Below are positions 20,327 through 52,370 of a DNA stretch of 64,000 nucleotides, piece by piece. Position 1 is the stretch's first letter. Each line of letters begins with the position of its first letter. The notes beneath the pieces were generated by a model. It was not told the origin of the DNA. It searched no databases and saw nothing but the letters and a program-made list of their open reading frames with translations. The stretch comes from Agathobaculum sp. NTUH-O15-33 (GTDB lineage: Bacteria > Bacillota > Clostridia > Oscillospirales > Butyricicoccaceae), in assembly GCF_033193315.1 (NCBI RefSeq), contig NZ_CP136187.1:1054001-1118000 (forward strand). Direction: 5' to 3'. Both the position numbers and the translations under genes were made by a program.

Positions 20327-20827
20327 CTATTTCTTCATATTAGAGGGCGGCTGCATTTCGGGCGGGACTAGGTCGCCGCCGTCCATGCGGGGCTGCGGCG
20401 GCGTCCACGGTTTTTCAGGGGGACGAACGTCGAAAGCCGGATTGAACGCATAATAGTTTTTCGCATCCAAATTATCTTGAACGACTCTGAGTGCGTCGCC
20501 AAACCGCTGGAAATGCACGACTTCACGCGCGCGCAGGAACTTGAGCGGCTCGCGCACATCGGGGTCGTCGATCAGGCGCAGCAGGTTGTCGTACGTCGTT
20601 CTGGCTTTGGATTCCGCCGCCAGATCTTCAAACAAATCGGTCAGCGGATCGCCCTTGGACTGGAACGTCATGGCGCTCCACGGCGTGCCCGATGCGAACT
20701 GCGGGTAAATGCCGGTGGTATGGTCGACAAAGTAGGCGTCGAAGCCGCCTTCCTTGATCTGCTCAGGCGTCAGGTTGCGCGTCAGCTGGTAAACGATCGC
20801 CGCAATCATTTCGAGATGCGCCAGCTC
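20327..20827 (-). pseudogene. cotJC: cotJC, 3' part (spore-coat manganese catalase), interrupted by prophage
   Basis: Encodes the C-terminal three quarters of a CotJC-type protein: ELAHLEMIAAIVYQLTRN carries the ExxH metal motif of manganese catalases, and AREVVHFQRFGDAL the second ligand helix. CotJC is made in the mother cell and becomes part of the spore coat. There is no start codon of its own; the first internal ATG gives residues from MIAAI. The upstream side is joined to prophage DNA at about 20826, inside the codons for GTEELAH. The missing upstream codons are found at 52263-52370 (ending GTE-E) and, by inference, beyond the window. Confidence 0.92.
20826..20827. other. left attachment site of prophage 1
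   Basis: Chromosomal cotJC sequence (…GCGCCAGC-TC) changes here to prophage sequence. At the other end TC-TTCGG resumes the gene. Choosing TC (GA on the coding strand) as the central dinucleotide recombines to ACC-GAA-GAG-CTG-GCG-CAT, in frame and encoding the conserved TEELAH. Other short shared words give a frameshift. Confidence 0.7.
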
Positions 20828-20842
20828 GTTAGCACATGGATG

Positions 20843-22408
20843 TTATCGGTGTGGACATGAAGAAGGGAATTTCGGGTAGAGGGTAAGGCGTAGATCGCTT
20901 TCGGAGCTGTGGCGAAGGTTGGTTGATTTATGGTATTCCACCTTTTCGAGGACGGAGGATAGAAGTTCGTTTTTCTTTTGCGCGGATTCTGTAAGTTTGT
21001 AGATATCTAAAACGTGTTGAATGCGGGGAACAAGATCACTTTTTGACGCTTCTTGAAGTTCGATCGTTTTGAGCTGGTTTTGCGTGGCCGAAATGTTTTT
21101 AGAAAGGGTTTCGCGTTGGGTGCTTAGCGTCTGCTGGCGCTCGATGAAAACGGCGGTGGAATAAACGGCTTGCTCAAGCAGGGTATAAAGCCGATCCTGT
21201 TGTTGCTCAAGCTGGGTTTGCTCGACAAGCAGCGCGTCGAGCGTATCACGAACAACATGCAATTCACTGCTTACGTGCGCGGCCGGAGAAAGAGCTAGAT
21301 TGGCTTGATAGTCTTTCAGCCAGTCCTCAAGATATTTCAAAACAAGATTTTCTATGTAGGCAAGCGGCGAAGAAACAGTTTCGCAACCGGGTTGCGGGCA
21401 GAGCAAGCCATCTGGATAGCCGTTAGTATAGGGGCGGCGCTGCATGGCACGGCCACAGCAACCACAAATGATGAGACCGGACAGCGGATTTTTGAAGGAT
21501 TTTTTGCCGGGGATGGGGCGGTTCGGCATTTCGGTAAAGTTCTGCTGCGCGAGGTCAAATACATCTTGAGATATAAGCGGCTCATGCAGCCCCTTACACA
21601 TTTCATAGTTTTCAGCCCACGGACGGCTTTTGATAATTTCACCATGCACCATTTGTTTGACACAGGCGCGGCGACCCCAAATAATGAAACCTTCGTACAC
21701 CGGATTTTTCAAAATGCGGGAAACTGTTGAGATCGTCCACTCGCCGCCTTTAGCGGTTGGAATTTGCAGATCGTTGAGCTTATGCGCGATAGCTGTACAG
21801 CTCAAGTGATTATTCTGATCGGTGAACCAAGCATAAATCAGACGTACAATTTCGGCCTGTTCGGGATGCGGAACGAGAATCCAGCCCTTTTCATTTTTAA
21901 GCTTTTCGCGGGTATAGCCATAAGGGCAGACGTTGCCCGGATATTTCCCTTCACGAATGGAGGACACACGGCCGGTTTGCAAACGGCGGTTGATGGTTTT
22001 ATATTCGCGGCGGCTCATAAACAAACCAAACTCAAAGTATTCTTGGTCAAATTCGTTCATGGGGTCATAGGTCTTGAGCGGCGTTATAATTTGTGTGTTG
22101 GAGTACATGAACGATTTTTGCACACGGCCTTGATCGGATGTGTCGCCGCGCGCAAGGCGCTCCACTTCGACGACAAGCACGCCGTCCCACAGGCCGGCAT
22201 CCACTTCATCAAGAAGCTGCTGCATGACGGGGCGGGCGGCAATCGTTTCGCCGGATACCATTTCACGATAGATTTTTGTTAGAGAAATCCGTTTTTGCTT
22301 GGCAAGATTCAGTAATATTTTTTCGTGCCGTGCAAAGGTTTCGCCTTCTCCATGTGTTTCGGCTTCCTGATCGGCGCGGGATTTGCGAATATAGGCACAG
22401 TATGGCAT
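20843..22408 (-). CDS. large serine integrase of prophage 1
   Basis: 521 residues. The N-terminal resolvase domain has the nucleophile serine in YIRKSRADQE (Ser10) and ends in a long helix. The recombinase domain spans about 165-270 (GNVCPYGYTR ... ILKNPVYEGF), the zinc ribbon is CGCCGRAM ... CPQPGC near 325-350, and a coiled coil of about 390-470 is rich in Gln/Leu. Large serine integrases insert and, with a directionality factor, excise phage DNA. The stop codon lies only 16 bp from the cotJC junction. The placement mirrors the recombinases of developmentally excised elements. Confidence 0.95.
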   Translation of the reverse strand: MPYCAYIRKSRADQEAETHGEGETFARHEKILLNLAKQKRISLTKIYREMVSGETIAARPVMQQLLDEVDAGLWDGVLVVEVERLARGDTSDQGRVQKSFMYSNTQIITPLKTYDPMNEFDQEYFEFGLFMSRREYKTINRRLQTGRVSSIREGKYPGNVCPYGYTREKLKNEKGWILVPHPEQAEIVRLIYAWFTDQNNHLSCTAIAHKLNDLQIPTAKGGEWTISTVSRILKNPVYEGFIIWGRRACVKQMVHGEIIKSRPWAENYEMCKGLHEPLISQDVFDLAQQNFTEMPNRPIPGKKSFKNPLSGLIICGCCGRAMQRRPYTNGYPDGLLCPQPGCETVSSPLAYIENLVLKYLEDWLKDYQANLALSPAAHVSSELHVVRDTLDALLVEQTQLEQQQDRLYTLLEQAVYSTAVFIERQQTLSTQRETLSKNISATQNQLKTIELQEASKSDLVPRIQHVLDIYKLTESAQKKNELLSSVLEKVEYHKSTNLRHSSESDLRLTLYPKFPSSCPHR

Positions 22409-22429
22409 AAAACCACTTTCCTTTCCATT

Positions 22430-22459
22430 TAGTCTATGCTATTATGAAAGGGCATAGTT
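22430..22459 (-). promoter_or_regulatory. candidate sigma-K/sigma-E-type promoter of the integrase gene
   Basis: On the minus strand CATAGACTA matches the mother-cell sigma-K -10 pattern CATAnnnTA. AACT lies 17 bp upstream, near the mACm -35 position. A CATACAnT-like sigma-E reading is also possible. No good sigma-A pair with TTGACA spacing is seen. A GGGCA-TAGT-TGCCC inverted repeat (22450-22463) overlaps the -35 side and could bind a repressor. The match is short, so it is suggestive only. Confidence 0.4.
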
Positions 22460-22493
22460 GCCCTATCTCTGACAGGTGAGGTATTGTGCGCTG

Positions 22494-22521
22494 GCCGCTC
22501 GGTGGTAGGACACCGAGCGGC
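22494..22521. terminator. hairpin between integrase and lipoprotein genes
   Basis: A perfect 11-base stem (GCCGCTCGGTG / CACCGAGCGGC) with a six-base loop, followed by TTTAAT on the plus strand. The loop side GGTGGTAG...CACCG recurs in two further hairpins at about 23058 and 23891. Confidence 0.6.
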
Positions 22522-22541
22522 TTTAATATTCTTGTGAACCT

Positions 22542-22994
22542 TTAACGCATATTGCAATGCTCGCATGGACTATACCCAAGGTATTGGCAGTATTCAACGT
22601 TGTGTGCAAACCATTCGGTTTCCATGTTGAAATAGGAACAGTCGAAACGGTGATACCTGTTTCCCTCATTGGTGATGAAACCAATGTTGTCGGAAAGGAA
22701 CAGCATGTCCTGTTCTGCGTTATATAGGTCGATACCCCTATCCGATTCGGCAAAGATATATCCGTAAGTATCAATTAATTCGCTTTGATGATCCATAATC
22801 CATTCGTGGGCAATTTCACCTGCCAATTCATCGGAAATATCATCTACAGATAAGTCGTGAGAAGCATTATAGGCGCCTTCGCTGTAACCTGTGTCATAGC
22901 CTTCGTCGTATTTATCTTGCAGAGTTTGCGAAGAGCTACAAGCAGAGCAGAAGCAAAGCACAAGACAAAGTGCGGGAATAATTGCTTTTCGCAT
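22542..22994 (-). CDS. small secreted lipoprotein with an H-C-C-C metal-binding tail
   Basis: 150 residues from the ATG at 22994 (AGGAGGG upstream). A signal peptide ends in the lipobox FCSAC, then come an acidic middle part and a tail NRYHRFDCSYF ... YLGYSPCEHC. The tail resembles the small Ada-like zinc motif found at the C-terminus of many secreted clostridial proteins. It lies in the lysogeny region, where cargo genes for the host are common. Function not known. Confidence 0.75.
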   Translation of the reverse strand: MRKAIIPALCLVLCFCSACSSSQTLQDKYDEGYDTGYSEGAYNASHDLSVDDISDELAGEIAHEWIMDHQSELIDTYGYIFAESDRGIDLYNAEQDMLFLSDNIGFITNEGNRYHRFDCSYFNMETEWFAHNVEYCQYLGYSPCEHCNMR

Positions 22995-23087
22995 TGTGAA
23001 AACCCTCCTAATTATGGTCGAATAATTAGAAGGACATGCAAGGCGTTCTTGGATTGGCCCGTTCCGGTGGTAGCGCACGGGGACGGT
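22992..23087. repeat. leader duplication, copy A
   Basis: About 95 bp upstream of the lipoprotein gene, covering the ribosome site, a TTAGAAGGACNTGCAAGGCG segment and a hairpin-like GCCCGTTCCGGTGGTAGCG block, closely matching copy B at 23826-23922. On the minus strand it includes a TTGCAT -35-like box. The hairpin is degraded here compared with copy B. Confidence 0.8.
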
Positions 23088-23096
23088 TTTATGTAC

Positions 23097-23828
23097 TTAT
23101 GACCAGAACTCGCTGTGCACGTTGTCGATTGAATGTGTAATATCATAATAAGCAGATCTTACAGCTGTTAGGGCATCGAGAAAATCATACGCATAAGAAA
23201 TATCATTGGTCGTATGGTATGACGTAAACGCAGAAAGAGCGCTTCCGTAAGTGTTAAAGTTGCTTTCAAGCGCATACATTATAACTTCCAGATCTTCGTA
23301 ATAATAAGATGTTTTATCGGACGAATTATAAACCTGCTTTGCTAACTCTGTTTTGATTTGGGAAAGCAAAGTGTAATTTTTAGTGCTTGAATCAATATTT
23401 GTTTGGGTAACGGAAGAATTCAACAAAAGCGTGTCCAACAGAAGCGTATCCGTGTAAATATGAGTGTTAAGGTCTACGCAGGAATCCAACAATTTGAGCG
23501 TGTACATGTTCCGGTTGTAAATGTCGTCCATAACATCAGAAGAAGCGGAAGACTGCGAAGAGATTTTCGCGGTTTTGGTGCTGGAATCGTAAGATATGTT
23601 CGCCCCCATTTGATCGCCTACCGCACGTATGGGAACGTAGGTGGTGCCCTGATACGTAAAGGGGAGAACTGTATTGCCATTCACATCGGTAAGTTTAGGG
23701 GATTGCCCGTTAATGCTCAAGTTGACATCATACGAAACATCAATGGTTTTTTGGTACTGATTTGCCGCATAAGCTCCAACTGTGAAAAAGGAGAACATCA
23801 AGAGTAACGCCATTAATCTTTTTTTCAT
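23097..23828 (-). CDS. secreted protein with copper-amine-oxidase-N-like (stalk) domain
   Basis: 243 residues. A signal peptide ends at AYAANQ. Residues 30-90 (SINGQSPKLTDVNGNTVLPF, TYVPIRAVGDQMGANISYD) form the repeated beta domain called copper amine oxidase N, common on Firmicutes cell-surface proteins. The remainder is Ser/Asp-rich and helical with no recognised family. It shares its leader with the neighbouring lipoprotein gene, so both are probably lysogenic cargo. Confidence 0.8.
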   Translation of the reverse strand: MKKRLMALLLMFSFFTVGAYAANQYQKTIDVSYDVNLSINGQSPKLTDVNGNTVLPFTYQGTTYVPIRAVGDQMGANISYDSSTKTAKISSQSSASSDVMDDIYNRNMYTLKLLDSCVDLNTHIYTDTLLLDTLLLNSSVTQTNIDSSTKNYTLLSQIKTELAKQVYNSSDKTSYYYEDLEVIMYALESNFNTYGSALSAFTSYHTTNDISYAYDFLDALTAVRSAYYDITHSIDNVHSEFWS

Positions 23829-23930
23829 TGTAAAACCCTCCTAAAAATAGTAGAATAAATTAGAAGGACGTGCAAGGCGTTCTTAGTTTGGCCCGTTCCG
23901 GTGGTAGCGCACCGGGGCGGGCTTTTTTTA
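23826..23930. repeat. leader duplication, copy B, with promoter and terminator hairpin
   Basis: Second copy of the leader. On the minus strand TTGCAC, 17 bp, TACTAT forms a sigma-A promoter for the stalk-domain gene. On the plus strand GCCCGTTCCGGTG / CACCGGGGCGGGC followed by T7 forms an intrinsic terminator. Confidence 0.75.
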
Positions 23931-23941
23931 TTGGTAAAATT

Positions 23942-23971
23942 TTGGCAATGAGATTATAGTCTATATATAAT
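23942..23971 (+). promoter_or_regulatory. promoter of the ImmA-like gene
   Basis: -35 TTGGCA, 18-bp spacer, -10 TATAAT, 24 bp upstream of the ATG. Confidence 0.6.
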
Positions 23972-23994
23972 ACAATACCATTTGAGGTGATTGT

Positions 23995-24627
23995 ATGAAA
24001 TATAGGATATATCAGGAGAGCCGCAACGCGGCATGGGATTTGCTGATAAAAGAGCAGGTTCGCACCCTGCCGGTACAGGTAGGGGCGATTTGCCGCCATA
24101 TGGGGTTTGCGGTATTTTCGTATGCGGTTGGAAAAAATTTAATCGCGTATTATGGATTAGCGAACCACGCGCGGCGAACGGATGGCTTTACCGTGCGTGC
24201 GGGCGACGATATCACAATATTTTACGACCAAACGAAACCGGACGGGCGAAACCGCTTCACGATCGCGCACGAGCTGGGGCACATCGTACTAGGGCATTTA
24301 GGCAACCGGCAAGTAACCGCGATAAACCGGGAGCAAGCGCCGGGCGACGACCCACGCGAAACGGCGGCAAATATATTTGCCGCGCGGCTATTGGCCCCAT
24401 CGTGCGTTTTATGGGGCATGCATGTGCAAACGGCGGAAGAAATCGCAAATGTTTGCCATATTTCGCACCATGCAGCAGAAATACGGGCAAAGCGGATGCA
24501 GCTTCTATATGCACGGGAGCACCAATTTTTACAGACGCGGGGGAAAAGCTGCTTTTTGCAACACCCCAAAGAACGCCGGGTTTACGAACAATTCCGCGCG
24601 TACATAGAGCATTACAAATCGGGTTGA
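23995..24627 (+). CDS. ImmA/IrrE-type metallopeptidase
   Basis: 210 residues with the zinc motif TIAHELGHIVLGHL (HExxH) near residue 99 and a downstream glutamate (ETAANIFAARLLAP). In ICEBs1 and related phages ImmA cleaves the immunity repressor to trigger induction. It is convergent with the repressor gene and overlaps its 3' end by 16 bp, which supports the pairing. An upstream GAGGTGATT ribosome site fixes the start. Confidence 0.9.
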   Translation: MKYRIYQESRNAAWDLLIKEQVRTLPVQVGAICRHMGFAVFSYAVGKNLIAYYGLANHARRTDGFTVRAGDDITIFYDQTKPDGRNRFTIAHELGHIVLGHLGNRQVTAINREQAPGDDPRETAANIFAARLLAPSCVLWGMHVQTAEEIANVCHISHHAAEIRAKRMQLLYAREHQFLQTRGKSCFLQHPKERRVYEQFRAYIEHYKSG

Positions 24628-25106
24628 TCGATATCGGATTTTAGCAGGCGTTCGCGCTCAAGGTGCGCGGCGGCTGCTTCTTCTTTGGACAGATCAGCGA
24701 CAGCCTCACCACCCCGGCGCGACACGGCGCGAAGCGGTATGGGCTGGGAATCGCCTATGTTCTGCGCAAAATTCAGCAAAAACTCTTTAAAAACTTTTTT
24801 GGACTGGGCGGGTAATGCAAGATACCCGGCCAGTATTTTTTTGTCCAGATCATCAAGTGCGTACTCATGCGCCAATTCATCAATCAATGTATCATCCGTT
24901 TGCACGAACATTTCACCATTGCCGGTGCGAAGCCATTCTTCATTGACGTTAAACTCACGGCAGATTGACACTATTACCGCATCGGATGGTGTTCTTAATC
25001 CGGATTCATAATTCGTTATGGTATTTCCTTTTACGCCAATTTGTGCCCCGAAATCAGTTTGAGTCATCTTATGTGCTTTGCGGATAAGCTTTATTCGCTC
25101 GTTCAA
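24612..25106 (-). CDS. XRE-family lysogeny repressor of prophage 1
   Basis: 164 residues. A helix-turn-helix at 1-60 (MTQTDFGAQIGVKGNTITNYESG) is followed by a helical C-terminal region without a LexA-type protease, fitting control by the neighbouring ImmA peptidase. The start is a TTG after AGGAGGTG. It is predicted to bind the ACTCTC-type half sites in the divergent promoter region. Confidence 0.85.
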   Translation of the reverse strand: MNERIKLIRKAHKMTQTDFGAQIGVKGNTITNYESGLRTPSDAVIVSICREFNVNEEWLRTGNGEMFVQTDDTLIDELAHEYALDDLDKKILAGYLALPAQSKKVFKEFLLNFAQNIGDSQPIPLRAVSRRGGEAVADLSKEEAAAAHLERERLLKSDIDQPDL

Positions 25107-25132
25107 AACATTTCACCTCCTATCTTGCCTGC

Positions 25133-25161
25133 ATTATATCGCAAAAAACTCTCATAGTCAA
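25133..25161 (-). promoter_or_regulatory. repressor promoter of prophage 1
   Basis: On the minus strand TTGACT, 17 bp, TATAAT. The spacer includes an ATGAGAG half site matching the operator of the opposing promoter. Confidence 0.8.
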
Positions 25162-25181
25162 TATTAATTTCAAGAAAGGCA

Positions 25182-25224
25182 TTGACAAAACTCTCGTTGA
25201 GAATTATAATACTTTCAACGAGAG
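25182..25224 (+). promoter_or_regulatory. early promoter of prophage 1 with operator dyad
   Basis: A consensus promoter TTGACA, 17 bp, TATAAT, with an overlapping perfect 10-base inverted repeat CTCTCGTTGA / TCAACGAGAG centred on the -10 box. The half site recurs in the repressor promoter, so one protein probably controls both directions. Confidence 0.85.
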
Positions 25225-25254
25225 GAAAATAAAATGATATGGTAGGTGAAAAGA

Positions 25255-25419
25255 ATGAAACTAACTTTAGATGGAGCCGACAACGAAATGGGGCATATCT
25301 CCATAGAAACGAAAGATATGCCCCAAGGGTTCTTACACCAGATGCAACCGCTATATGACGGCGGAAAATTGTATGGGTTTGTTATTCAATTTTGTCTGAT
25401 GGATAAAGAGGAGGATTAA
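25255..25419 (+). CDS. small early phage protein, 54 residues
   Basis: First gene after the early promoter, with GGTAGGTG ahead of the ATG. Mixed charged sequence (GHISIETKDMPQGFLHQM) with no recognised family. Its 3' end overlaps the opposite-strand gene that follows by about 38 bp. Confidence 0.55.
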   Translation: MKLTLDGADNEMGHISIETKDMPQGFLHQMQPLYDGGKLYGFVIQFCLMDKEED

Positions 25420-25762
25420 GTTCGCCGCACTCCAGCTGACGGTGTACTTTGGCGTTGTGCTTGAAGTTTTGAGAGTCAAGACCGATTACATGTGCCATTA
25501 AAGATAGGGGCTTACAGTAATTCTTTCCGGAATCACCGTAAGTCGAAACTCCATTATGAATGGTGCCGTAATATTCGACAGTTGAATTGCCACTTGCATT
25601 TACTGTGCCGTATAAATCGCCATGCAAAATAGCACGAGAATGTTCAAATAAGTGGATATCCCCATGATAATCGGTTTCAACAGATACCACTGCGCCATTT
25701 ACGATTGCAAGGTCTTCGCCGAGATCTGTTGTAATACTTAAAGATTGATTGATTTTATACAA
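25382..25762 (-). CDS. hypothetical protein, 126 residues
   Basis: A TTG start is chosen because AAAGGAGG lies 8 bp before it. The protein is rich in short beta-like repeats (HGDIHLFEHSRAILHGDLYGT, each block with H/Y-G-D/T), compatible with a small beta-helix or polymer-forming (bactofilin-like) fold. It runs against the early genes, as cargo genes often do. No function can be assigned. Confidence 0.5.
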   Translation of the reverse strand: MYKINQSLSITTDLGEDLAIVNGAVVSVETDYHGDIHLFEHSRAILHGDLYGTVNASGNSTVEYYGTIHNGVSTYGDSGKNYCKPLSLMAHVIGLDSQNFKHNAKVHRQLECGELNPPLYPSDKIE

Positions 25763-25847
25763 GTTAAAACCTCCTTTCTACACCCAGTATACCAATTTTT
25801 ACAGGTGTGGACAAGGAGAAAACACATAATACAAGGAGGGATACTGT

Positions 25848-25988
25848 ATGAGCACCGAGCAGGAGAAGCGCGAAGACTTGGAAGAAATCGCGGAGATTAT
25901 GCAGATTTTGCCGGAGGACGATAAGCAAAAGCTTTATGGGGTTGCGATCGGCTTAAAGCTTGCGGGACAGACGAAAGCCGTTAGTTAA
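25848..25988 (+). CDS. small phage protein, 46 residues
   Basis: A strong AAGGAGG precedes the ATG. The helix-rich acidic sequence (EEIAEIMQILPEDDKQKLYGVAIGLKLAG) is of a type often seen after the repressor in clostridial prophages; a similar-looking protein is encoded at 55408 in prophage 2. Confidence 0.6.
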   Translation: MSTEQEKREDLEEIAEIMQILPEDDKQKLYGVAIGLKLAGQTKAVS

Positions 25989-26103
25989 GTCGGGGGGCGA
26001 CAGGGGGACAGTCACTCCGTCGGAACGACATGGAAACAGCCCCCTTGTCTGCCGGCATAGGGACAGGCAGCCGGGCCATAGGTTAAGCCGAGGTGATGAA
26101 CAC

Positions 26104-26283
26104 ATGATAATAGAAACGCGAAAAATCGGCGGGGTCACGATCGAGACAGCGGACGATGCGTTTGCAGGCTTGGGGCCGGAGGAAATACGGCACAGGCATG
26201 AGGTGTTTGACCGTACGTTACGCGAAACACTGCTGCAAATTCAGCGGGACAGTAGGGCCGATGAACCGCGCAAAAGCGGATGA
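26104..26283 (+). CDS. hypothetical phage protein, 59 residues
   Basis: ATG after GAGGTGATG. Contains RKIGGVTIETADDAFAGL and a charged helical tail. No recognised family. Early region of prophage 1. Confidence 0.5.
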   Translation: MIIETRKIGGVTIETADDAFAGLGPEEIRHRHEVFDRTLRETLLQIQRDSRADEPRKSG

Positions 26284-26344
26284 ACACGGGCGGGGAACCG
26301 CCCACGAATAAAAATGGACAAGCAGGACATAGGAGGTTAAAGAC

Positions 26345-26973: not shown

Positions 26974-27176
26974 GCTCGCTGGCCCTTGATGCGTATATTG
27001 CGAAAAAGCTTGGAATTTCCTACGGGGAATACTCGGCGGCGGTTACGCCAAAGGAGCGGCGCACGCTGGAGGAGAAGCACTGGCCCGCGTTCCGCAAGGC
27101 ACAGGGGCGGGCGTACACCAAGGCAAAGCGCGAACAAAGTGCACTTGGAAAAGGGCAAATGAAAACCGGCCTATAG
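26949..27176 (+). CDS. hypothetical basic phage protein, 75 residues
   Basis: GTG at 26949, with ATG at 26961 as alternative. The Lys/Arg-rich sequence with LDAYIAKKLGISYGEYSAAV suggests a small DNA-associated helical protein. Its stop codon lies inside a perfect hairpin. Confidence 0.55.
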   Translation: MGRKMQAVSSLALDAYIAKKLGISYGEYSAAVTPKERRTLEEKHWPAFRKAQGRAYTKAKREQSALGKGQMKTGL

Positions 27177-28104: not shown

Positions 28105-28345
28105 TCTAGGTATTGTTTACTTGCGATTTTATCAAGCGTTCGGGCGGTTTCCCAGTGATGAAACAGGGAATCGGCTGCTCGTGGCGCTAAAAAACGGCGT
28201 GTATCCGTCAGAGATCGCAAACGTGATAACGGCGATGGGTCAAGAGGATGTAGCGCGGGCGGATGAAAAACTGTTACAGGAAGTAAGGCGGATATACCTT
28301 GTAAAGCAGGAGAAAAGGCAGGGCGCTAGGAGCGTCCTGCCTTAG
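28097..28345 (+). CDS. hypothetical phage protein, 82 residues
   Basis: GTG start overlapping the previous gene by 8 bp. A helical protein (YLRFYQAFGRFPSDETGNRLLVALKNG). Its end touches the convergent AbiH gene. No recognised family. Confidence 0.5.
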   Translation: MLDLGIVYLRFYQAFGRFPSDETGNRLLVALKNGVYPSEIANVITAMGQEDVARADEKLLQEVRRIYLVKQEKRQGARSVLP

Positions 28346-29496
28346 AAACCTGAAATCATTTCTAATTCATGAAACGTAATGGTTTCGTTATAATATAGTT
28401 CTTCAAATGTGTCACGGGAAAGAACTTTTAAAAGATTGATTACTTTTTGCTCATAATCGGATTGCGAATAGTAGTAAATTTTTACGCTGTTGGTTGCTTT
28501 ATTGCATATACATTCGCGCAAAATGTCTTGGTCTGTTGTATCAAGGGAATGCCCAATAATATAGAAATTGAGTGATTTTGCTGGTGATGGATCGTTGTAT
28601 AGATTTGCTGCACGAAACCATTTTTTATATGTATTACCGGTGCGTTGTTGAATGCGCTGAAAATGCTTTTTAAAATAAATGATATCGTAGACATCTTCTC
28701 GATTAGTAAATGCATCTCGAATACCGAGCACTATATTATGACTGGGCTTCTCAGATTGAAAAACTGAGTGATGTCCATGAATATGATGAATACATTTAGA
28801 AGACAGATGAATTCCTGTTTCAGAGTATGTAGTGGTGTAATTAAAAGAGAGTATATTTGAGATTTCAAGATCATAAAGGCATTTCATTTTCTTTCTTATG
28901 GGGAGGTTGGAAACGAAATAAGTGAGATAATAATCCAAAGCGATAATAAGACCATTAAGGTCATCTTTTAAGACGTCAAAAAACGCAGTTTGTGAAAGAG
29001 ATTCTCTACCGTTTAAAATACAATTTAATCTCGCAAACTTACCATCAATATCGCCTAAACGGCTCAAATTAAACGGAGAAGCGTCTTGGAAGTATTCAAA
29101 CATTAATCCGATAAGCGATTCGATTTCTGCTTCAAAATCAATCCAGCCCTCTTTAGCGTATGGCGCTTCAAAAAAGTATTGTAGAAGAGCATTGTTATTC
29201 CTAAGAGAATCTAATTTTTTGTGAGCATTATAATATGGTTGCGCACCTTCTTTAGGAAAGCAATAATTAAAAAAATCCCGTACAGTTCGCTTGGACTTAG
29301 CAGGGTCTTCTTCCATGCTTTTATCTTTACTGATATATAATTTGGAAAAGGAAGAAGTGTTTATTTTTGAGGAATTGTGAGTACTGGAGTATTTGGGAAG
29401 GTATTTCATAAAAGTAATGAAATCGACATATCGAGTGGGTAGACCAAGAGCAAGATCAAATCCGTTTCCTATAATTAGAATATTCTGCTCACTCAT
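28342..29496 (-). CDS. abiH: AbiH-family abortive infection protein
   Basis: 384 residues from the ATG at 29496 (GGGGG ten bases upstream; an upstream ATG at 29526 has none). The N-terminus NILIIGNGFDLALGLPTRYVDF is the AbiH signature; NILSFNYTTTY near the middle and FYIIGHSLDTTDQDIL near residue 320 are the other conserved blocks. In lactococci AbiH makes infected cells abort phage growth; the mechanism is not known. The gene is AT-rich compared with its neighbours, runs against the early transcript and interrupts it, which suggests a later acquisition by the prophage to exclude competing phages. Confidence 0.9.
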   Translation of the reverse strand: MSEQNILIIGNGFDLALGLPTRYVDFITFMKYLPKYSSTHNSSKINTSSFSKLYISKDKSMEEDPAKSKRTVRDFFNYCFPKEGAQPYYNAHKKLDSLRNNNALLQYFFEAPYAKEGWIDFEAEIESLIGLMFEYFQDASPFNLSRLGDIDGKFARLNCILNGRESLSQTAFFDVLKDDLNGLIIALDYYLTYFVSNLPIRKKMKCLYDLEISNILSFNYTTTYSETGIHLSSKCIHHIHGHHSVFQSEKPSHNIVLGIRDAFTNREDVYDIIYFKKHFQRIQQRTGNTYKKWFRAANLYNDPSPAKSLNFYIIGHSLDTTDQDILRECICNKATNSVKIYYYSQSDYEQKVINLLKVLSRDTFEELYYNETITFHELEMISGF

Positions 29497-29607
29497 TTTT
29501 ATTATACCCCCAAAGTATCTTTGCATATAGGATACAGCAGATTGGAATGAAAAGCAATTAAAACTCGAATTATGTAATGTAAGCTAAGCAACGGGAGATT
29601 CAATAAG

Positions 29608-31318: not shown

Positions 31319-31927
31319 ATGGAAAAGATTTACGGATATGCGCGCGTCAGCACGCGGGAACAGAACCTTGACCGGCAAATTTTGGCGCTGCGGCAATATG
31401 TGAAGGACGATCGCGACATCATTACGGACAAAGAAAGCGGCAAGAACTTTGACCGGCCGGGGTATCGGTCGTTACGCGATACACTGTTACGGGCGGGCGA
31501 TACGCTCATTGTTAAATCACTCGACCGACTTGGCCGTAACAAAGAGCAAATGAAAAATGAAGTACAATGGTTTAATACGCATGACATCCGCCTAAAGGTG
31601 ATCGATCTTCCCACGACCATGACCGACCTTCCCGACGATCAAAAATGGATTATCGAAATGGCGAACAATATTATGATCGAAGTACTGTCCAGCATTGCAG
31701 AACAGGAGCGCGAAACGATTCGGCAGCGTCAGGCCGAGGGGATAGAAGCCGCGCGCCAGAAAGGCAAACACTTGGGGAGAAACCCTGCGCAATACCCGGA
31801 ACGATGGGCCGAGGTTTACAGCGCGTGGAATGCGGGCGGAATCACGGCAACGCAGGCCATGAAAACACTTGGGTTAAAACGAACGACGTTTTATAAGCTG
31901 GCGAAATGTATGGCGAAAAAAGATTAA
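31319..31927 (+). CDS. small serine recombinase (Hin/resolvase family)
   Basis: 202 residues; ATG after GAGGAGG. The catalytic serine is in YARVSTREQNLDRQ (about Ser9), RLGRNK and DRPGYRSL are conserved, and a C-terminal HTH (GITATQAMKTLGLKRTTFYKL) binds DNA. It could invert or resolve a segment, but I found no matching inverted sites. It is distinct from the large integrase at 20843 and is transcribed with the packaging genes. Confidence 0.88.
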   Translation: MEKIYGYARVSTREQNLDRQILALRQYVKDDRDIITDKESGKNFDRPGYRSLRDTLLRAGDTLIVKSLDRLGRNKEQMKNEVQWFNTHDIRLKVIDLPTTMTDLPDDQKWIIEMANNIMIEVLSSIAEQERETIRQRQAEGIEAARQKGKHLGRNPAQYPERWAEVYSAWNAGGITATQAMKTLGLKRTTFYKLAKCMAKKD

Positions 31928-45293: not shown

Positions 45294-48200
45294 ATGGCAA
45301 GCGAATTCTTGCGCAATAAAGCCGCGGAACGAGCAAAAAAAATTGATGAAGAATATGGCCCGGATGCATATGGTGGCAGTGGATGGATTGAAAAAACCGT
45401 AAAGCAAAACCAAGCAAAGGCACAAAGTAAAACCAGCGGCTCAAATCCGATCAGGCGTACCATTACGGAAGCCTCTTCAGGCTACCTGACCGGAACAAAA
45501 GAGGGGCGGCTACTTTCGGCAGACGAACGGGTACAAAATAGACGAACGGCGGAACGCGCGGCTTCCTCCTATGCGGCGGCGGCCGGGATTACAGACCCCG
45601 AAGAGCAAAAGCGTGTGCAGCAGGGTATAGAAAGCGCCGCCGCAAAGCGGAAAGAAGCCAAGGGCGCGCCCGCATGGGAAGACATGTTTGCCAAAGACCG
45701 CAATTATGTTGATCTTGCGAAGGCGGGAGACCTGACGGGCGCGGCCGCGAATTTCATCGGCACTGGATTGCAGGCGGCGCAATCACTTTATCTGAACGCC
45801 ATAAACGCGGGAACCGATCTTGCAACAGGCAAGAAGCCGGAATTTCATTACAATATGGATTATTCGGATTACGAAAAAGAGGTTGCGGACAAAACCGGGC
45901 AAGAAAAAACGATCAGCGAGAAAATTAGTGATCAGAATAAGGGGGCAGGCGCGCTCTTCTCGCTGGCAATGGAAACCCTCACAGACCCTACAGAGTATAT
46001 CAGCGGCGGTATGTTTAATGACGCAGCAAAGGCGCTGGGTAAAGCAAAGCCGGGTTCGGCTGAATACATGAAAGCGCTGCAAAAGGGCACGTTCTCACAG
46101 GTGCCCAAACCGAACATTAACACAAATGCCGCAGACACGGCGCAGGATGCACGCAAGGGAACGCCTGAACTGGACGATCTGCCAGAGATTACGAGCGAAC
46201 AGGGGCGCTCTATCACGCAGGAAATGGATAATGCTGCACAGGCAACAAAGACCGCCGACCCATTTGAGCAGCAAGCAATAAAGATAGCCGATGCCCGGCA
46301 AGCAGCGGAAGCCGAATTGGAAGATGCAAAGGCCGGGTTCCGGCAATATTACGCGGAATACAGAAGCACCACGCCGGAGACCCGCCGCGCAGACCTGCTC
46401 ACGGATGCGGAAACGGCGAAAAAGAAGGTAGACGCGGCGCAGGCCGAGGTTGACCGACTGGCAAAAGCGACAGACGACCTTGAAACAGCACGTATGGCGC
46501 GGAAAACAGCGGAGAGCGAAGCCGAAGCCGCCAAGCTGGCGGCGGCAAAGGAAGCCGAAGCGGCGCGCACGCGAATGCAGCAGACAAGGCAGATCGCGGA
46601 CGGCATGGACACGGCGACCGTACACCGCGCGGATTTGGACGCGCTGAACGAAATAGGGGTAAACGACCCTGTTATTGCAGCTATGCGCAGAAATTACGGG
46701 CAAGGCGAGGTGCAGCAAGCCGCGCTTTACAGCCTGTACAAAAAGCTGGATGAAGCGGATTCGCTCGAAGATGCGCTGAAAATCCGCGAGCAAATAACGA
46801 CGCTGGAAAAACAACTTGATGGAACGGCCGATCTTCTGACACACTCCCAGCAGAAATTTATAGAAGGAGCCAAACAGCCCGCCGTGCTGGATTCGCTGGA
46901 CTTGGACGAAACGGCCCCGGCGACCACCACGAAAACAAACCCTACCGTACTCAAGAAGGACGGTGCCGCCGATGGGTTCAGCACGGGCGCGCGCGTTTGG
47001 GCTGGTGATCGCAACAACTACGGGACGATTCAACAAAAGAATGCGTCCGGGACGTATGATGTTTTATTTCACGATACGGCAACGGGACGTAACAAAACGG
47101 TAGAAATGCCCGGCGACATTTTGCAGGCGGTCGATCAAAACCCGCCGCGTGCAAAGTTGGATGAATTGCCGGACTTCGCTTCCTCCAATGCGGCAAGCGC
47201 CACCGCGCAAACAGCGGAAGGCGATAGCGCAAAATGGCGGCGGGTATGGTCGGCAGATGAAACACCGGCAGCGGAAGCGGCAAAGCCGCCCATAAGCGCC
47301 GCCGATGAAGCGCAGAAAGCACAGGTAGCGGCGAGGAACGCGGATGAAGCAGACCCGCGAGAATTGGAAACGGCAAAGGCGCTTGTAGATGAAATCGACC
47401 CGGACACAGCCACGAAAAGCGGACTGGAAAGCTTGCCCGAAGATACGTTTTGGCAACTGAAAAATCCCAAAGGCGCGCACAACAAGGATATTTCGCGTGT
47501 GCTGGATTCCGTGGCGGGAAAAGATACCAAGGTGCGCGAAGTGCTGCGGAAATACATTGAGCGCCCGATCATGGAAGCGAAAAACCGGTATGCGCACAGC
47601 GTACAGAATAAGCTTGACCAGTACTATGAAGCCACGAAAGAACTTGGCATTAAGCAGGGGAGCCGCGAAAGCGCGGCGGTGCAATGGTATGGAGAGGGAT
47701 ACCGGCGCATCAAAACCAAGGGTAACATTGAGGAAATACCGTATACGCTGGCTGACCTGCAACGGGACTTTCCCGACACATGGCAGAACATCCAGCAGAT
47801 GGACAACATTAATCGCCGGGTTTATTCGGACTACCTCGACCAGTTAAACGGCGTGCTGGGGAAAATTTATCCCAATGTCGAAGAAAACGCAAAGGAAAGT
47901 CTAACACTCTTACAAGCCCAACGCGATGGACTACAAAATAAAATCCGCACACTGCAAGAGGGGTTACAGGCGGCGCCGGAATCTAAACAATACGCGGGAG
48001 AGCTGCAAAGCTTAATGCAGCAGGTACAGACAAACGACAAAGAAATCGTTAAGCTGCAACGTGCAATAGAAAATGGCGAGATATTCCGCAACAAGCGCGT
48101 GTTTGCACGAAAGGACTATTATCACCACTGGCAAGAGATGGACGACGGGTTTTCCGCGATCAAAAACATTTTTCAGACATCGGCCGATATTGACCCGCGT

Positions 48201-50909
48201 CTTGTCGGCGTTTCCGACTGGACAAAGCCGAAAACCAAGTGGGCCGGATTTATGCAGGCGCGAAAAGGAATTGACAGCGCGGAGGATTCCGTGGGCGGCA
48301 TGGTCAAATACATACAGGCGGCGGAATACAAGATCAATATTGACCCGGAAATTACGCGGCTGCGCGTGACGGTGCGTGACCTTCAAAACGGCACGGCGGA
48401 AACCAAGAACGCAAACGGGTTTATTGAATGGCTCACCGATTACGCGAATGACCTTGCGGGCAAGACGAACCCGTTAGATCGCGGCGTTCAAAAAACTGTG
48501 ATCGGGCGCGCTACAATGAAAAAACTACGCTGGCTGAATAACCGAGTAAAAGGCAACGCGGTAATGGGTAATTTAAGCTCGGTCGTTTCACAGGTTTATA
48601 ACCTGCCTAATGTAGTGGGATATGTGAAAAATCCGGTTGACCTTGCGACGGGCATGGCGGACACGGCGCGCGTGAGTTTGGGCGATAAGAAAATGAAAAA
48701 TCTATTATCGCAAAGCGGTTTTCTAACCGAGCGTTATTTAGACCATTCCGTGCGACAATTCGATGAGGGGATTTTAAAAACGCCGGAAAAGCTCGCTTCG
48801 TGGATGATGGAAATTGGAGATCGCAAGGTTGCGGAAATGTCTTGGTTTTCGGCATACCGGCAAGCAGAGCGTAAGGGCCTTCAAAATGCGGTTGAGTACG
48901 CGGACGATTTGACGCGGCGCGCGGTAGCCGGGCGCGGAATCGGCGAAATACCGCTAAACCAAAAATCAGAGATCACAAAGTTAATCGCGCCTTTTCAGGT
49001 GGAAGTAAACAATGCGTATCAAATGCTAAAGGAAAAGATGAAGCAAAAGGACGCGCTTTCCCTGATTGAGGTTTTCGGCACTACTTGGATTTTAAACGAG
49101 TTGCGGAAAAATGTAATTGACGGCAGGGAAACGGGTTTTGACCCGATTCATGCAGCACAAGAGGTGCACGGAGATATTGCGGCAGAAGAGGCGGTAGGGA
49201 AAACACTGAATATAGGGCAAAAGGCCACGCGATATGGCGGCCGAATGCTTGGAGAGTTCCTTTCTAATGTGCCGGCCGGGGACCAGCTTGCAAGAACTGT
49301 ATTGGGACTTGACGAAACGACCGCAAAAAACCTCTTTGGCGAGGGAGACCCGACCAGATTCGGAACGGGCAATATCGGCCTTTCGGCAATTACTACACCG
49401 CTGGCGAACCTTGCAACAGGAAAGCAAGTGGACTATCTCGAACCACTTACAAACATTGCGTTACCGTTTGGCGGTGCGCAGGTTAACAGATCACGCAAAG
49501 CAGCCGAAGACCTTGATTTCATCCCAAAGCTGCGCGCCAATAGCACAGAGGGATTTACCGCCAAGGAACAGCCGACAGCGGGCGCTTACACGGCGGATAA
49601 TTCACGGCTGAAATACTTGATCGATACAGGCGACCCATTGAATGTGGCGAAAGCCATTGGATTTGGCTCGACAGCAACCAAAGAGGGACAAGCATATCTT
49701 GCAAACGGGAATAAAATGTATTCCGAAAAGGATACGCAAAACTTCGATGCGCTGCTTGAGTTAGGCCATGAACCGCAAAGCACCCTTGATACGCTGAATG
49801 AAATACACGGCATGCAGCCAACCAAGGACGCAGAAGGTAAAACCGTAGAGACCGCGCCGCAAAAGTCGCGCGAGTACATCATGTCGCTGGATATTGACCC
49901 GCGTCAAAAACAAGAGCTTGACCGCATTCTGATTGCTGGAACGGAACGGACAGAAGACGGAACCCGGTTCACAAAACGCATACCGGACTATTCATCTGAA
50001 AGCGCGGTTGATGCCTTTAACAATTTGTCGGAAGCCGCGTATAACGAAGCAACCGAAGCCCGTAAACAATCGGGAATTGAGTACGACGTTTACCTGAAAG
50101 CCTACAATGCAATGAAGGAGATCGACCGAAAGAATGAAAACGGGGAGCTTGGGAACCGCACGTTAAGTGATGCAAAGCGCGGCGCACTTGCAAGTATGGA
50201 TATTTCAGATGAAGACAAGGCGGTGCTTAACGATCTTCTTGTATCGAACCGGAAACCTACGTCTTATTCTGACTTTTCCGTTGCTGATTTGACAGAAGCA
50301 GCACAAAACAAATGGCCGAAGGCAAAAGCGGCAGGATTCACAGAAACGGAATTCGGCGACGTGTGGCGCACAATCGGTAAATATACCAAAACAAAAGATC
50401 GGCTTTCCGCTGTTGTCGCTCTGGGATTCCCGGAAGCCGATGCAGAATTTTTTGTAAAGCTTTATACGGAAAAAACGGCAGAATCAAGCGGCGACTGGAA
50501 ACTACCGGTTACACCGGGCGAAAACGTTTGGATATCCTCTAACTATGGGCCGCGTGATGCGCCCACGAACGGCGCGTCAACGTTCCATCCCTCGGTTGAC
50601 ATTGCAGCAAACGCAGGTGAACCAGTTTTTGCGACAAAGAGCGGTATTGTTACAGCAGTCAACAAGCGTGGCAATGGTGGAGGGTATGGAACTTGGGTGC
50701 AGATCGACCACGGCGACGGCTATGTAACGCAGTACAATCACATGCAGGAAGGCTCTGCCGATGGGCTGAACCTCGGCGATATAGTAAAGGCAGGGCAAGA
50801 AGTTGGTCTGGTTGGCTCTACCGGCACAAGTACCGGCCCGCACCTTGATTTCAAAATGCTGTACAACGGGCAGACAATCGACCCGTTACAGGAACTATAC
50901 GGATACTAA
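45294..50909 (+). CDS. giant virion protein with C-terminal M23 peptidase domain
   Basis: 1871 residues. A long helical body (with Ala/Glu-rich coiled coil at about 330-430) ends at about 1742-1871 in a LytM/M23-like domain: FHPSVDIA holds the zinc His and Asp, YNHM follows, and GPHLDFKM replaces the usual HLHF. The first His is kept; the second, normally a zinc ligand, is Asp. It is probably an ejected internal protein that opens the peptidoglycan. One uninterrupted frame of this size shows that base calling is reliable here. Confidence 0.85.
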   Translation: MASEFLRNKAAERAKKIDEEYGPDAYGGSGWIEKTVKQNQAKAQSKTSGSNPIRRTITEASSGYLTGTKEGRLLSADERVQNRRTAERAASSYAAAAGITDPEEQKRVQQGIESAAAKRKEAKGAPAWEDMFAKDRNYVDLAKAGDLTGAAANFIGTGLQAAQSLYLNAINAGTDLATGKKPEFHYNMDYSDYEKEVADKTGQEKTISEKISDQNKGAGALFSLAMETLTDPTEYISGGMFNDAAKALGKAKPGSAEYMKALQKGTFSQVPKPNINTNAADTAQDARKGTPELDDLPEITSEQGRSITQEMDNAAQATKTADPFEQQAIKIADARQAAEAELEDAKAGFRQYYAEYRSTTPETRRADLLTDAETAKKKVDAAQAEVDRLAKATDDLETARMARKTAESEAEAAKLAAAKEAEAARTRMQQTRQIADGMDTATVHRADLDALNEIGVNDPVIAAMRRNYGQGEVQQAALYSLYKKLDEADSLEDALKIREQITTLEKQLDGTADLLTHSQQKFIEGAKQPAVLDSLDLDETAPATTTKTNPTVLKKDGAADGFSTGARVWAGDRNNYGTIQQKNASGTYDVLFHDTATGRNKTVEMPGDILQAVDQNPPRAKLDELPDFASSNAASATAQTAEGDSAKWRRVWSADETPAAEAAKPPISAADEAQKAQVAARNADEADPRELETAKALVDEIDPDTATKSGLESLPEDTFWQLKNPKGAHNKDISRVLDSVAGKDTKVREVLRKYIERPIMEAKNRYAHSVQNKLDQYYEATKELGIKQGSRESAAVQWYGEGYRRIKTKGNIEEIPYTLADLQRDFPDTWQNIQQMDNINRRVYSDYLDQLNGVLGKIYPNVEENAKESLTLLQAQRDGLQNKIRTLQEGLQAAPESKQYAGELQSLMQQVQTNDKEIVKLQRAIENGEIFRNKRVFARKDYYHHWQEMDDGFSAIKNIFQTSADIDPRLVGVSDWTKPKTKWAGFMQARKGIDSAEDSVGGMVKYIQAAEYKINIDPEITRLRVTVRDLQNGTAETKNANGFIEWLTDYANDLAGKTNPLDRGVQKTVIGRATMKKLRWLNNRVKGNAVMGNLSSVVSQVYNLPNVVGYVKNPVDLATGMADTARVSLGDKKMKNLLSQSGFLTERYLDHSVRQFDEGILKTPEKLASWMMEIGDRKVAEMSWFSAYRQAERKGLQNAVEYADDLTRRAVAGRGIGEIPLNQKSEITKLIAPFQVEVNNAYQMLKEKMKQKDALSLIEVFGTTWILNELRKNVIDGRETGFDPIHAAQEVHGDIAAEEAVGKTLNIGQKATRYGGRMLGEFLSNVPAGDQLARTVLGLDETTAKNLFGEGDPTRFGTGNIGLSAITTPLANLATGKQVDYLEPLTNIALPFGGAQVNRSRKAAEDLDFIPKLRANSTEGFTAKEQPTAGAYTADNSRLKYLIDTGDPLNVAKAIGFGSTATKEGQAYLANGNKMYSEKDTQNFDALLELGHEPQSTLDTLNEIHGMQPTKDAEGKTVETAPQKSREYIMSLDIDPRQKQELDRILIAGTERTEDGTRFTKRIPDYSSESAVDAFNNLSEAAYNEATEARKQSGIEYDVYLKAYNAMKEIDRKNENGELGNRTLSDAKRGALASMDISDEDKAVLNDLLVSNRKPTSYSDFSVADLTEAAQNKWPKAKAAGFTETEFGDVWRTIGKYTKTKDRLSAVVALGFPEADAEFFVKLYTEKTAESSGDWKLPVTPGENVWISSNYGPRDAPTNGASTFHPSVDIAANAGEPVFATKSGIVTAVNKRGNGGGYGTWVQIDHGDGYVTQYNHMQEGSADGLNLGDIVKAGQEVGLVGSTGTSTGPHLDFKMLYNGQTIDPLQELYGY

Positions 50910-50925
50910 AAAAGGAGAAAAAGAC

Positions 50926-51378
50926 ATGGACAAGCTGTTAGAGACTAAACTTTGGTTTACCGGAATTGCGGGGGTAATTGCTGTCAAGTTGGGCGCGGCG
51001 TTCTGGCCTATCCTCATCATGATCGGTTGCTCCATTTTTGACTACGCAACGGGGCTAATCGCGGCCCCGTTCCGTGGAACAAAAATCGATAGTGAAACCG
51101 GCATGAAGGGCATTGCAAAGAAAGTATGCATGTGGATGCTGGTATTGGTGGGCGCGGTGCTGGATTGGATGCTGGTATTTATGGGCCTTGATTTGCCGGT
51201 ATCCTCCCCAATCGCAATTATCGTAGCTGTTTGGATTATTGCAAACGAACTGATATCTATTTTGGAAAACCTGCATGATGTGGGTGTGCCTATGCCAGAT
51301 TTCTTGGTACAGCTCGCAGAAATGGTCAAAACCAAGGCAAAAATAGATGTACCGGACATGCAGAAAAAGGAGAAATGA
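50926..51378 (+). CDS. holin (phage holin family 4/TcdE-like)
   Basis: 150 residues; ATG after AAAGGAG. Three or four membrane helices, with MIGCSIFDYATGLIAAPFRG being the conserved turn of this holin family. Makes the pore that lets the amidase reach the wall. Confidence 0.9.
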   Translation: MDKLLETKLWFTGIAGVIAVKLGAAFWPILIMIGCSIFDYATGLIAAPFRGTKIDSETGMKGIAKKVCMWMLVLVGAVLDWMLVFMGLDLPVSSPIAIIVAVWIIANELISILENLHDVGVPMPDFLVQLAEMVKTKAKIDVPDMQKKEK

Positions 51379-51381
51379 CAT

Positions 51382-52155
51382 ATGAAAATTCTATTGATTT
51401 CGGGACACGGCGGAACCAAGCACTATGACCCCGGCGCGGAGGGATGCGGATACCGGGAAGCAGTATTGACCCGCGAGCAGGCGCGACTTGTGCAGAGCGA
51501 GCTTGCCAAGTACGAAGTAGAGATTGCGCTATACGATCAAAACAAGGATGCCTATCAAGAACTGAAAAACGGCGGCAAGTTGCCGCTTTCCGGGGTGGGG
51601 TATGTGCTGGAATTCCATTTCAATGCATGTGTCAATGATGAACGGGGCGACGGGCGAACAACAGGAACCGAAGTGCTGGTAAGATCGAATGAAGCATCTG
51701 TAAGCGTTGAACAGGGAATAGTGAACGGCATTGCGGCATTTGGTTTGAAAAATCGTGGTGTAAAGCGAAATAACGGTTTGCTTGTGATGAACACGGTTAA
51801 GCGCGCGGGCATTTCGCACGCACTGGTAGAAACGTGCTTTATTGATGATCGCGATGATATGGTTATCTATAGCGCAAAGAAAAAGGAGATCGCGGCCACA
51901 ATCGCGCAGGCCGTAGCAAATGGATTTGGACTAAAAATAAAGGAGGAAAACGACGTGTTTACATATGAGGATTTTAAGGCATTCCTGAGCCGTTATGAAA
52001 AGGAGAGGGAATCACTGCCCGCAAGCAAGTTTGCGAATGACGCATGGGCGGCACTCAAAGATGCGGCCTTGACCGATGGAAGCGCACCACGCGCACCGCT
52101 TACCCGCGAACAGTATGCGGTATTGGAACAGCGCGCCGGGAGAATCGGTAAGTAA
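51382..52155 (+). CDS. N-acetylmuramoyl-L-alanine amidase (endolysin)
   Basis: 257 residues, amidase 3 family: zinc ligands in ISGHGG, YREA and EFHFNA; catalytic glutamate in LVETCFI. A C-terminal helical cap (FTYEDFKAFLSRYEKE) may bind the wall. Last lysis gene of prophage 1, 4 bp after the holin gene. Confidence 0.93.
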   Translation: MKILLISGHGGTKHYDPGAEGCGYREAVLTREQARLVQSELAKYEVEIALYDQNKDAYQELKNGGKLPLSGVGYVLEFHFNACVNDERGDGRTTGTEVLVRSNEASVSVEQGIVNGIAAFGLKNRGVKRNNGLLVMNTVKRAGISHALVETCFIDDRDDMVIYSAKKKEIAATIAQAVANGFGLKIKEENDVFTYEDFKAFLSRYEKERESLPASKFANDAWAALKDAALTDGSAPRAPLTREQYAVLEQRAGRIGK

Positions 52156-52207
52156 ATAGGGCTTGACCACAACGGCGATTTGTGATATAAAAAGTGTAGA
52201 AAAGCAA

Positions 52208-52236
52208 AGAAGCCGCGGGTTTTCGCGGCTTCTTTG
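52208..52236 (+). terminator. terminator at the end of prophage 1
   Basis: AGAAGCCGCG / CGCGGCTTCT, six-base loop, followed by TTTG. Ends the lysis transcript just before the attachment site. Confidence 0.85.
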
Positions 52237-52370
52237 TCATGTATAAGTTTGTTGTGCGAGTTCTTCGGTGCCGACATCGGTCAAGATACCCTTGCATTCC
52301 TTATAGGGCATGGCGTAACGCTGGTTGAGGTAGCGCATGGATGCGCCCAGTTCGCCGTCCGGCCCCCCTA
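52237..52370 (-). pseudogene. cotJC: cotJC, middle part, between two prophages
   Basis: Encodes GGPDGELGASMRYLNQRYAM and then PYKECKGILTDVGTE-E, the segment directly N-terminal to the part at 20327-20827. Chromosomal sequence runs from about 52263 to 52370. To the left it reads into prophage 1 (LAQQTYT, stop at 52237), and to the right it is cut by prophage 2 within the conserved GGPDGE block. The first 30 or so codons of the gene must be to the right of the second prophage. Confidence 0.9.
52262..52263. other. right attachment site of prophage 1
   Basis: TC precedes TTCGGTGCC of cotJC, matching the TC at 20826-20827. Joining the two outside arms restores codons for GTEELAHLEM without frameshift. 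The resulting prophage is about 31.4 kb. Confidence 0.7.

Follow-up and report, generated by a model that had tools for sequence, protein, structure and literature searches.

A spore-coat gene, cotJC, split by two serine-integrase prophages in Agathobaculum, with recurrent breaks across the Oscillospirales

Introduction

Regulated gene integrity by integrative elements, in which a gene is inactivated by integration and restored by excision, was reportedly described by Mageeney in 2020 (Nucleic Acids Research). Among sporulation genes, gene-intervening elements are known in sigK, spsM, gerE and yabG, as described in four papers (PMC5595907, PMC4191935, PMC5025042, PMC10747680). Here, we analyzed the spore-coat gene cotJC in a 64,000-nucleotide stretch of Agathobaculum sp. 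NTUH-O15-33 (RefSeq assembly GCF_033193315.1, contig NZ_CP136187.1, positions 1,054,001 to 1,118,000 of the forward strand; hereafter the window), and in related genomes. In the window strain cotJC is broken into three in-frame pieces by two different prophages, and the gene is broken at the same few positions in many relatives. A description of split cotJC was not found among the papers listed in searches of the open-licence literature of PubMed Central, several of which gave only the top of hundreds of matches; most subscription papers and all preprints lie outside this collection. A single paper in the collection contains both cotJC and serine recombinase, and the main text of PMC10083194 makes no mention of catalase, spore coat or cotJC.

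Results

The three pieces of cotJC in the window strain

The genome of the window strain (G000) is a single contig of 4.0 Mb, of which the window is bases 1054001-1118000. A search of this genome placed cotJC (family PF05067) on the minus strand, in three pieces at 1074471-1074833, 1106255-1106383 and 1146903-1146998. Prophage A, inserted after codon 64, and prophage B, inserted after codon 32, lie between them. Both insertions fall in the coding region of a sporulation gene whose three pieces lie behind cotJA and cotJB, and each element has a site-specific recombinase beside its end, intA in prophage A and intB in prophage B. The features are listed below in window coordinates unless stated otherwise.

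20327..20827, minus strand: cotJC exon 3 (codons 65-230 plus the stop codon), unlike the species' uninterrupted gene at 1 of 166 residues
20826..20827, no strand: prophage A core dinucleotide, exon 3 side; TC on plus, GA on the gene strand, against the empty site of stretch L008
20828..52263, no strand: prophage A, about 31.4 kb; boundaries from the empty-site comparison; phage genes
20843..22408, minus strand: intA, large serine integrase of 521 amino acids, site-2a clade (Resolvase, Recombinase and Zn_ribbon_recom domains; tree)
52262..52263, no strand: prophage A core dinucleotide, exon 2 side; TC on plus, GA on the gene strand, against the L008 empty site
52264..52365, minus strand: cotJC exon 2 (about codons 31-64), from the genome search and comparison with the empty site
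52361..52365, no strand: GGCCC on plus (GGGCC on the gene strand), common to both prophage B ends, with the core within it
52366..64000, no strand: part of prophage B inside the window; it continues to about G000:C1:1146908, about 40.5 kb in total
52409..53866, minus strand: intB, large serine integrase of 485 amino acids, site-1 clade (domain scan, tree), adjoining exon 2
G000:C1:1146903-1146998, minus strand: cotJC exon 1 (first 32 codons), MWSYDKRLQFPVKIKNPDPQAAKIVITQLGGP, behind cotJA and cotJB, about 29 kb past the right end of the window

The first-pass annotation, made from the window alone, had described cotJC as split once, by one prophage, in a skin-like arrangement. The 3' part and the upstream codons do lie far apart (20327-20827 and 52263-52365, minus strand), and a serine-integrase prophage of 31.4 kb stands between them, with its integrase at 20843-22408, phage genes and boundaries set against the empty site. 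The likeness to skin also holds, in that an element with a recombinase sits inside a coat gene whose empty site is known in the same species. The single split, correct for prophage A, had to be revised: beyond 52365 the gene is broken again by a second serine-integrase prophage.

A gap of 15 bp separates the stop codon of intA from exon 3, and intA is distantly related to intB (34 bits). The scan of prophage A, which took in 23 of its 33 main open reading frames (ORFs), one of them on its other strand, showed genes for the major head protein, terminase, tail, endolysin and replication. Prophage B, which ends about 29 kb beyond the right end of the window, has a contractile-tail gene set with tail sheath, baseplate, portal, terminase and a YqbQ-like protein (main scan of 35 of 60 main ORFs). 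Both prophages, as temperate phages do, combine structural genes with an integrase of Resolvase, Recombinase and zinc-ribbon domains. Further genes were noted within them: an AbiH-type abortive-infection gene (window 28342-29526, minus strand, Pfam AbiH) and a second, small serine resolvase besides the large integrase (window 31319-31927, plus strand, Pfam Resolvase) in prophage A, and a tyrosine recombinase (Pfam Phage_integrase) near the far end of prophage B (L006:6569-7582, plus strand; G000:C1:1140569-1141582). Elsewhere in the genome, the only other PF05067 copy, intact and at C1:1935692, was considered as a replacement cotJC and rejected, since its sequence is divergent and it does not belong to the cotJ operon. 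G000 has an unsplit sigK-like gene.

The empty site and the crossover cores

The first-pass annotation had suggested a search for an uninterrupted cotJC, and such a gene, whole and of 230 codons, is present in G060, another genome of the window strain's species (stretch L008). This locus matches the window chromosome in three blocks, 20255-20827 (573 nt, 99.0% identity), 52253-52362 (110 nt, 97.3%) and 92904-96000 in extended window coordinates (99.2%). Because the blocks on both sides of prophage A are 99.0% and 97.3% identical to the empty site, chance is excluded.

Comparison with L008 also bore out the proposed exchange at the shared TC as the prophage A core. When joined in silico, the gene strand reads ...ILTDVGTEE/LAHLEMIAAIVY..., the slash marking the joint, and the predicted in-frame regeneration thus agrees with the reading frame of the uninterrupted gene. 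At the prophage B core, G060 differs from the GGGCC region by one base. Both joints are in frame, and the joined exons differ from the G060 gene by one residue.

Recurrent breaks in the family and the order

In relatives of the window strain (60 relatives; 87 family genomes), cotJC pieces end repeatedly at the same residues. Flanks of the broken copies were collected and aligned to define break sites, which fall at residues ~31 (site 1), 63-65 (sites 2b and 2a), 136 (site 3) and 175 (site 4). By hand tally, cotJC is broken at these sites in 37 of 88 family genomes, G000 included: 14 have at least two pieces on one contig, 15 have them on different contigs and 8 have one piece only. The most fragmented case is G002, with five exons and four gaps within 83.5 kb of one contig, and G079 and G083 each have four exons on one contig.

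The order sample (Oscillospirales) comprised 297 genomes, 254 of them with a cotJC match, and a hand count gave 81-84 of these 254 with a broken gene. The higher figure is the sum of 63 re-examined genomes, 19 family genomes, G048 and G058, whereas the lower one leaves aside the doubtful G174, G245 and G246; partial-match genomes such as G133, G222 and G277 stand outside the tally. Re-examination of 78 order genomes gave 63 with at least two pieces, 9 with one full copy and 6 with one partial copy, figures that should not be read as a rate because the 78 were picked for a weak or partial best match. Nine low-identity rows (29-36%) were dropped as paralogues (G236 twice, G200, G243, G149, G162, G293, G321 and G327). 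Almost all breaks of the order sample (74 of 76) fell inside four windows that make up about one third of the protein and were drawn after the sites were seen.

Two control genes behaved differently from cotJC. SpoIVA, another mother-cell protein, was found in 69 of 87 family genomes and spanned the profile in 69 of 69, and RpsB, of similar length, was partial in 8 of 76 among the 87 family genomes and never in two pieces on one contig. The 128 cotJC exon pieces contain zero stops inside an exon; four stops flagged by the script fall past the break. The same few break points in many related species, together with intact pieces, suggest a gene that is rejoined by excision when needed. The first-pass annotation had seen a candidate phage-host switch in a single locus; the split is real, but it involves two prophages and belongs to an order-wide phenomenon.

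Two genomes showed pieces in unusual positions, each a possible large rearrangement. In G227 they lie on opposite strands (G227:C3:54033, plus, and 162493, minus), and in G174 they lie 675 kb apart on one contig (G174:C1:198548 and 873266).

Recombinases at the break sites

A tree of 66 recombinases adjoining the breaks (449-734 amino acids) resolved five clades, one per site. The five site labels require four changes on the tree, the minimum possible, and each group has 100% ultrafast bootstrap support; this test is independent only for sites 1, 3 and 4, because sites 2a and 2b are two codons apart and their labels were set partly by which recombinase adjoins. Long branches separate the clades, and five recombinase families therefore probably reached cotJC separately. 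Six matches of 289-395 amino acids, five of them at or near the end of a stretch or contig, were left off the tree, and absence of a recombinase was taken as uninformative at contig ends or where only one junction was covered.

The recombinase lies beside the downstream exon in 8 of 8 cases at site 2a and on either side at other sites; two 2a-like viral contigs (L232 and L293) have the cotJC piece in the opposite placement to other 2a cases. At site 3, GA is common to the paired ends at one fixed codon in 17 of 17 pairs. In G002, the gap between exons 2 and 3 is bounded by recombinases of two clades, 2b on one side and 2a on the opposite side (L011:10031-11776 and L012:2100-3665), although their sites overlap, and it could hold either two stacked elements or one with two recombinases.

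Small elements, their cargo and selection

Elements in cotJC measure about 3.1 kb at the smallest (G255) and tens of kb at the largest, with some of 3-5 kb. Each small element annotated has a single recombinase, and host-like genes accompany it. The element of G058 encodes Fe/Mn superoxide dismutase, as does its counterpart in G162, that of G255 pyrimidine nucleoside phosphorylase, that of G313 an ABC transporter and that of G337 a methylguanine methyltransferase; the GH25/LysM protein of the G233 element might be a phage lysin. No phage structural families were found among the 10 small-element proteins scanned with Pfam. A small protein of about 59-75 amino acids with no Pfam family recurs in the site-1 elements of G058, G162 and G341 (L016:10639-10863, minus strand; L172; L175) and is a candidate directionality factor or coat-related protein. 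Likewise, a small ORF of 65-108 amino acids precedes some 2b recombinases (L015, L023 and L170; 41% alike between G048 and G079, similar in G186) and is a candidate regulator.

G058 and G162 belong to two species of a single genus, which is placed in another family, and have in common a colinear 3.2-kb site-1 element, with 91.1% identity over 5,854 bp that run from the flank through exon 1 and the element into exon 2. By the Nei-Gojobori method (own script), synonymous divergence (dS) was 0.545 for cotJC (197 codons joined from the exons) and 0.546 for the recombinase, with nonsynonymous divergence (dN) of 0.019 and 0.050 and dN/dS of 0.035 and 0.092, respectively. Read most simply, these values mean that gene and element have stayed associated since the species diverged and that both have been retained. 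A second pair, G048 and G186 (site 2b), gave dN/dS of 0.018 for cotJC and 0.124 for the recombinase, at high dS (1.16 and 2.36) and with a partly different element. Purifying selection acts on the exons as well as on the recombinase of the vertically inherited case, and split cotJC genes as a class have therefore probably been kept functional through excision.

Relatives of the elements in viral contigs

Integrases of the B family were present in 31 viral contigs, and in 6 of these the sequence passes from the integrase directly into cotJC at about residues 25-30. An uncut attP, with paired AT-rich arms around a G-rich core, was seen by eye in 13 of the 31, and a strict rule (arm score of 9 or more plus core) was passed by 7 of 26 B-family windows compared with 2 of 620 random windows. 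Prophage B itself retains the arm pair TATCTGTTTTT/AAAAACAGATA at its two ends.

A single-sequence search of viral contigs confirmed no relatives of intA; an alignment-based search reached them. Within the best 80 of 257 matches, 17 A-family contigs carried a cotJC piece, and 16 of 40 other contigs with enough sequence showed paired arms under a looser rule applied with no control. These relatives are 42-62% identical to A, and some may use other targets. For the site-3 clade, a cotJC piece was present in 6 of 15 viral contigs. One viral contig, IMGVR_UViG_2593339269_000002 (L192, L231), combines a B-type integrase that leads into a cotJC piece with an A-type one that leads into a later piece, which reads as the same stacking as in the window.

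Discussion

We propose that in the window strain two independent serine-integrase prophages keep cotJC in pieces and that the gene is restored by excision, and assign this reading as a whole a probability of about 70%. Each prophage would have integrated at its own conserved site in the cotJC coding sequence of a Butyricicoccus/Agathobaculum strain, and precise recombination between attL and attR by each phage's integrase, with a presumed directionality factor, would yield the 230-codon gene, both excisions (A and B) being required for a whole cotJC. By analogy with known elements, excision may occur in the sporulating mother cell, in which CotJC would be made and the loss of phage DNA would not be inherited. 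What can be read in the sequence itself comprises the three in-frame pieces, the cores, the empty site, the intact integrase genes, the recurrence of the breaks and one recombinase clade per site. CATANNNT, the -10 element common to sigma-E and sigma-K, was found upstream of cotJC first exons in 52 of 57 regions (~750 nt) against a resampled mean of 21.6, a comparison with no opposite-strand control.

Several observations weigh against this reading. Upstream of recombinases, CATANNNT occurred in 24 of 65 cases (mean 10.1 and maximum 18 in 200 resamplings), but it occurred on the opposite strand in 15 of 65, and its positions were scattered. Stricter sigma-K and CATACANT patterns showed no excess upstream of recombinases, and a sigma-K-like box upstream of intA (CATAGACTA, window about 22430) found no general support in the set-wide test. 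The exact joined attP of prophage A or prophage B was not found in viral contigs. In G068 the site-3 recombinase L145 (289 amino acids), internal to its stretch, looks broken; the first-pass annotation had named the same split without a functional recombinase as grounds for doubt, and when such cases were looked for, 66 recombinase ORFs of 449-734 amino acids adjoined breaks and this one looked broken. Prophages A and B resemble ordinary, complete phages whose insertion may be recent, and therefore the evidence of selection from other split genes is not directly about them. Finally, insertion mutants of the CotJC-type genes cotCB and cotD of Clostridioides difficile, according to passages of PMC11222575, had no significant coat defect, and cotJC may therefore be dispensable.

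The alternative that survives best is plain lysogeny, under which cotJC would serve several families of phages and mobile elements as a conserved attB and would itself be dispensable; insertion would inactivate the gene, the exons would look intact since insertions are recent and turn over, and there would be no developmental timing. The little coat defect reported for the C. difficile mutants (PMC11222575) fits this view, as do the phage structural genes of prophages A and B and the absence of both from G060. Viral contigs, moreover, hold relatives of both integrases with uncut attP-like sites, and such phages therefore move. However, the vertical inheritance of the 3.2-kb element, whose recombinase equals the exons in dS, and the exon dN/dS of 0.035 speak against plain lysogeny, and small elements without recognised phage structural genes (10 proteins scanned) and the zero stops inside 128 exon pieces point the same way. 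We consider plain lysogeny unlikely, although a serious contender.

Phase variation or spontaneous excision appears considerably less probable. Random restoration in a minority of cells would be enough for selection to maintain the exons, and the mother cell would play no part in it. Large serine integrases are able to excise when a directionality factor is present, and the occurrence of CATANNNT upstream of recombinases, with its opposite-strand counterpart, would be compatible with excision of this kind. On the other hand, only sporulating mother cells have a use for a coat gene, and random excision would cure the lineage as well, yet the elements persist across species. As for an assembly or binning artefact, or chance, as the cause of the split, many relatives are drafts with pieces on different contigs in 15 of 37 family genomes, but the single contig of G000, at least two pieces on one contig in 14 family genomes, the empty-site identity, breaks at fixed codons beside recombinases and the unaffected control genes led us to reject it as next to impossible.

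A broader view may be considered, to which we give slightly less than an even chance: that cotJC of this order is in pieces by design. Five clades, each with its own site, would have colonised the gene, some of them now domesticated to 3-5 kb, and would form a multi-input gate with one to four programmed excisions per mother-cell generation and cargo lost from the mother cell alone. Superoxide dismutase, nucleoside phosphorylase, the ABC transporter and other cargo would then be discarded from the mother cell only.

In the literature consulted, programmed gene reassembly in sporulation concerns a few genes (sigK, spsM, gerE and yabG), and here one coat gene is hit recurrently across a gut-bacterial order, by five site-specific recombinase clades. 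Its ~230 codons are interrupted as many as four times, by insertions as small as 3 kb or as large as a whole phage. The cotJC series could provide a direct test of how a phage becomes a domesticated genetic switch, and it offers a set of serine recombinases whose sites have been mapped. Annotators should also be aware that cotJC will pass for a pseudogene in many gut genomes although it may not be one.

Comparison with known systems

The general concept reportedly described by Mageeney in 2020, a gene inactivated by integration and restored by excision, would cover cotJC. Among the closest described systems is skin in sigK of Bacillus and Clostridioides, likewise a recombinase-bearing element inside a mother-cell gene, which in skin is reconstituted in frame by excision (PMC5025042, PMC4191935 and PMC5595907). 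Unlike skin, the target here is not a sigma factor but a late structural coat gene, and there are two elements at two sites; the likeness is one of sequence arrangement. SPbeta in spsM of Bacillus subtilis is similarly a phage with a serine integrase that splits a spore-envelope gene (PMC4191935), whereas cotJC is occupied by two phages at once and, in other species, has related elements at additional sites. Non-phage or phage-like elements splitting sporulation genes are represented by gin in gerE of Bacillus cereus and yin in yabG of Clostridium botulinum (PMC5595907 and PMC10747680). The 3-5 kb cotJC elements resemble gin in having no recognised phage structural genes, but gin, as given there, measures 28.6 kb and has three recombinases, compared with one in each small annotated cotJC element. 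In C. difficile R20291, the attR of the functional prophage phi027 adjoins a CotJC homologue, CDR20291_1465; in that case the 678-bp ORF is presented as a bacterial gene downstream of attR, and no split or reconstitution is described in the relevant passages (PMC11222575). The kind of system is already known from skin, SPbeta and gin, whereas the target gene, the number of sites, the stacking and the size range appear to be new within the literature searched.

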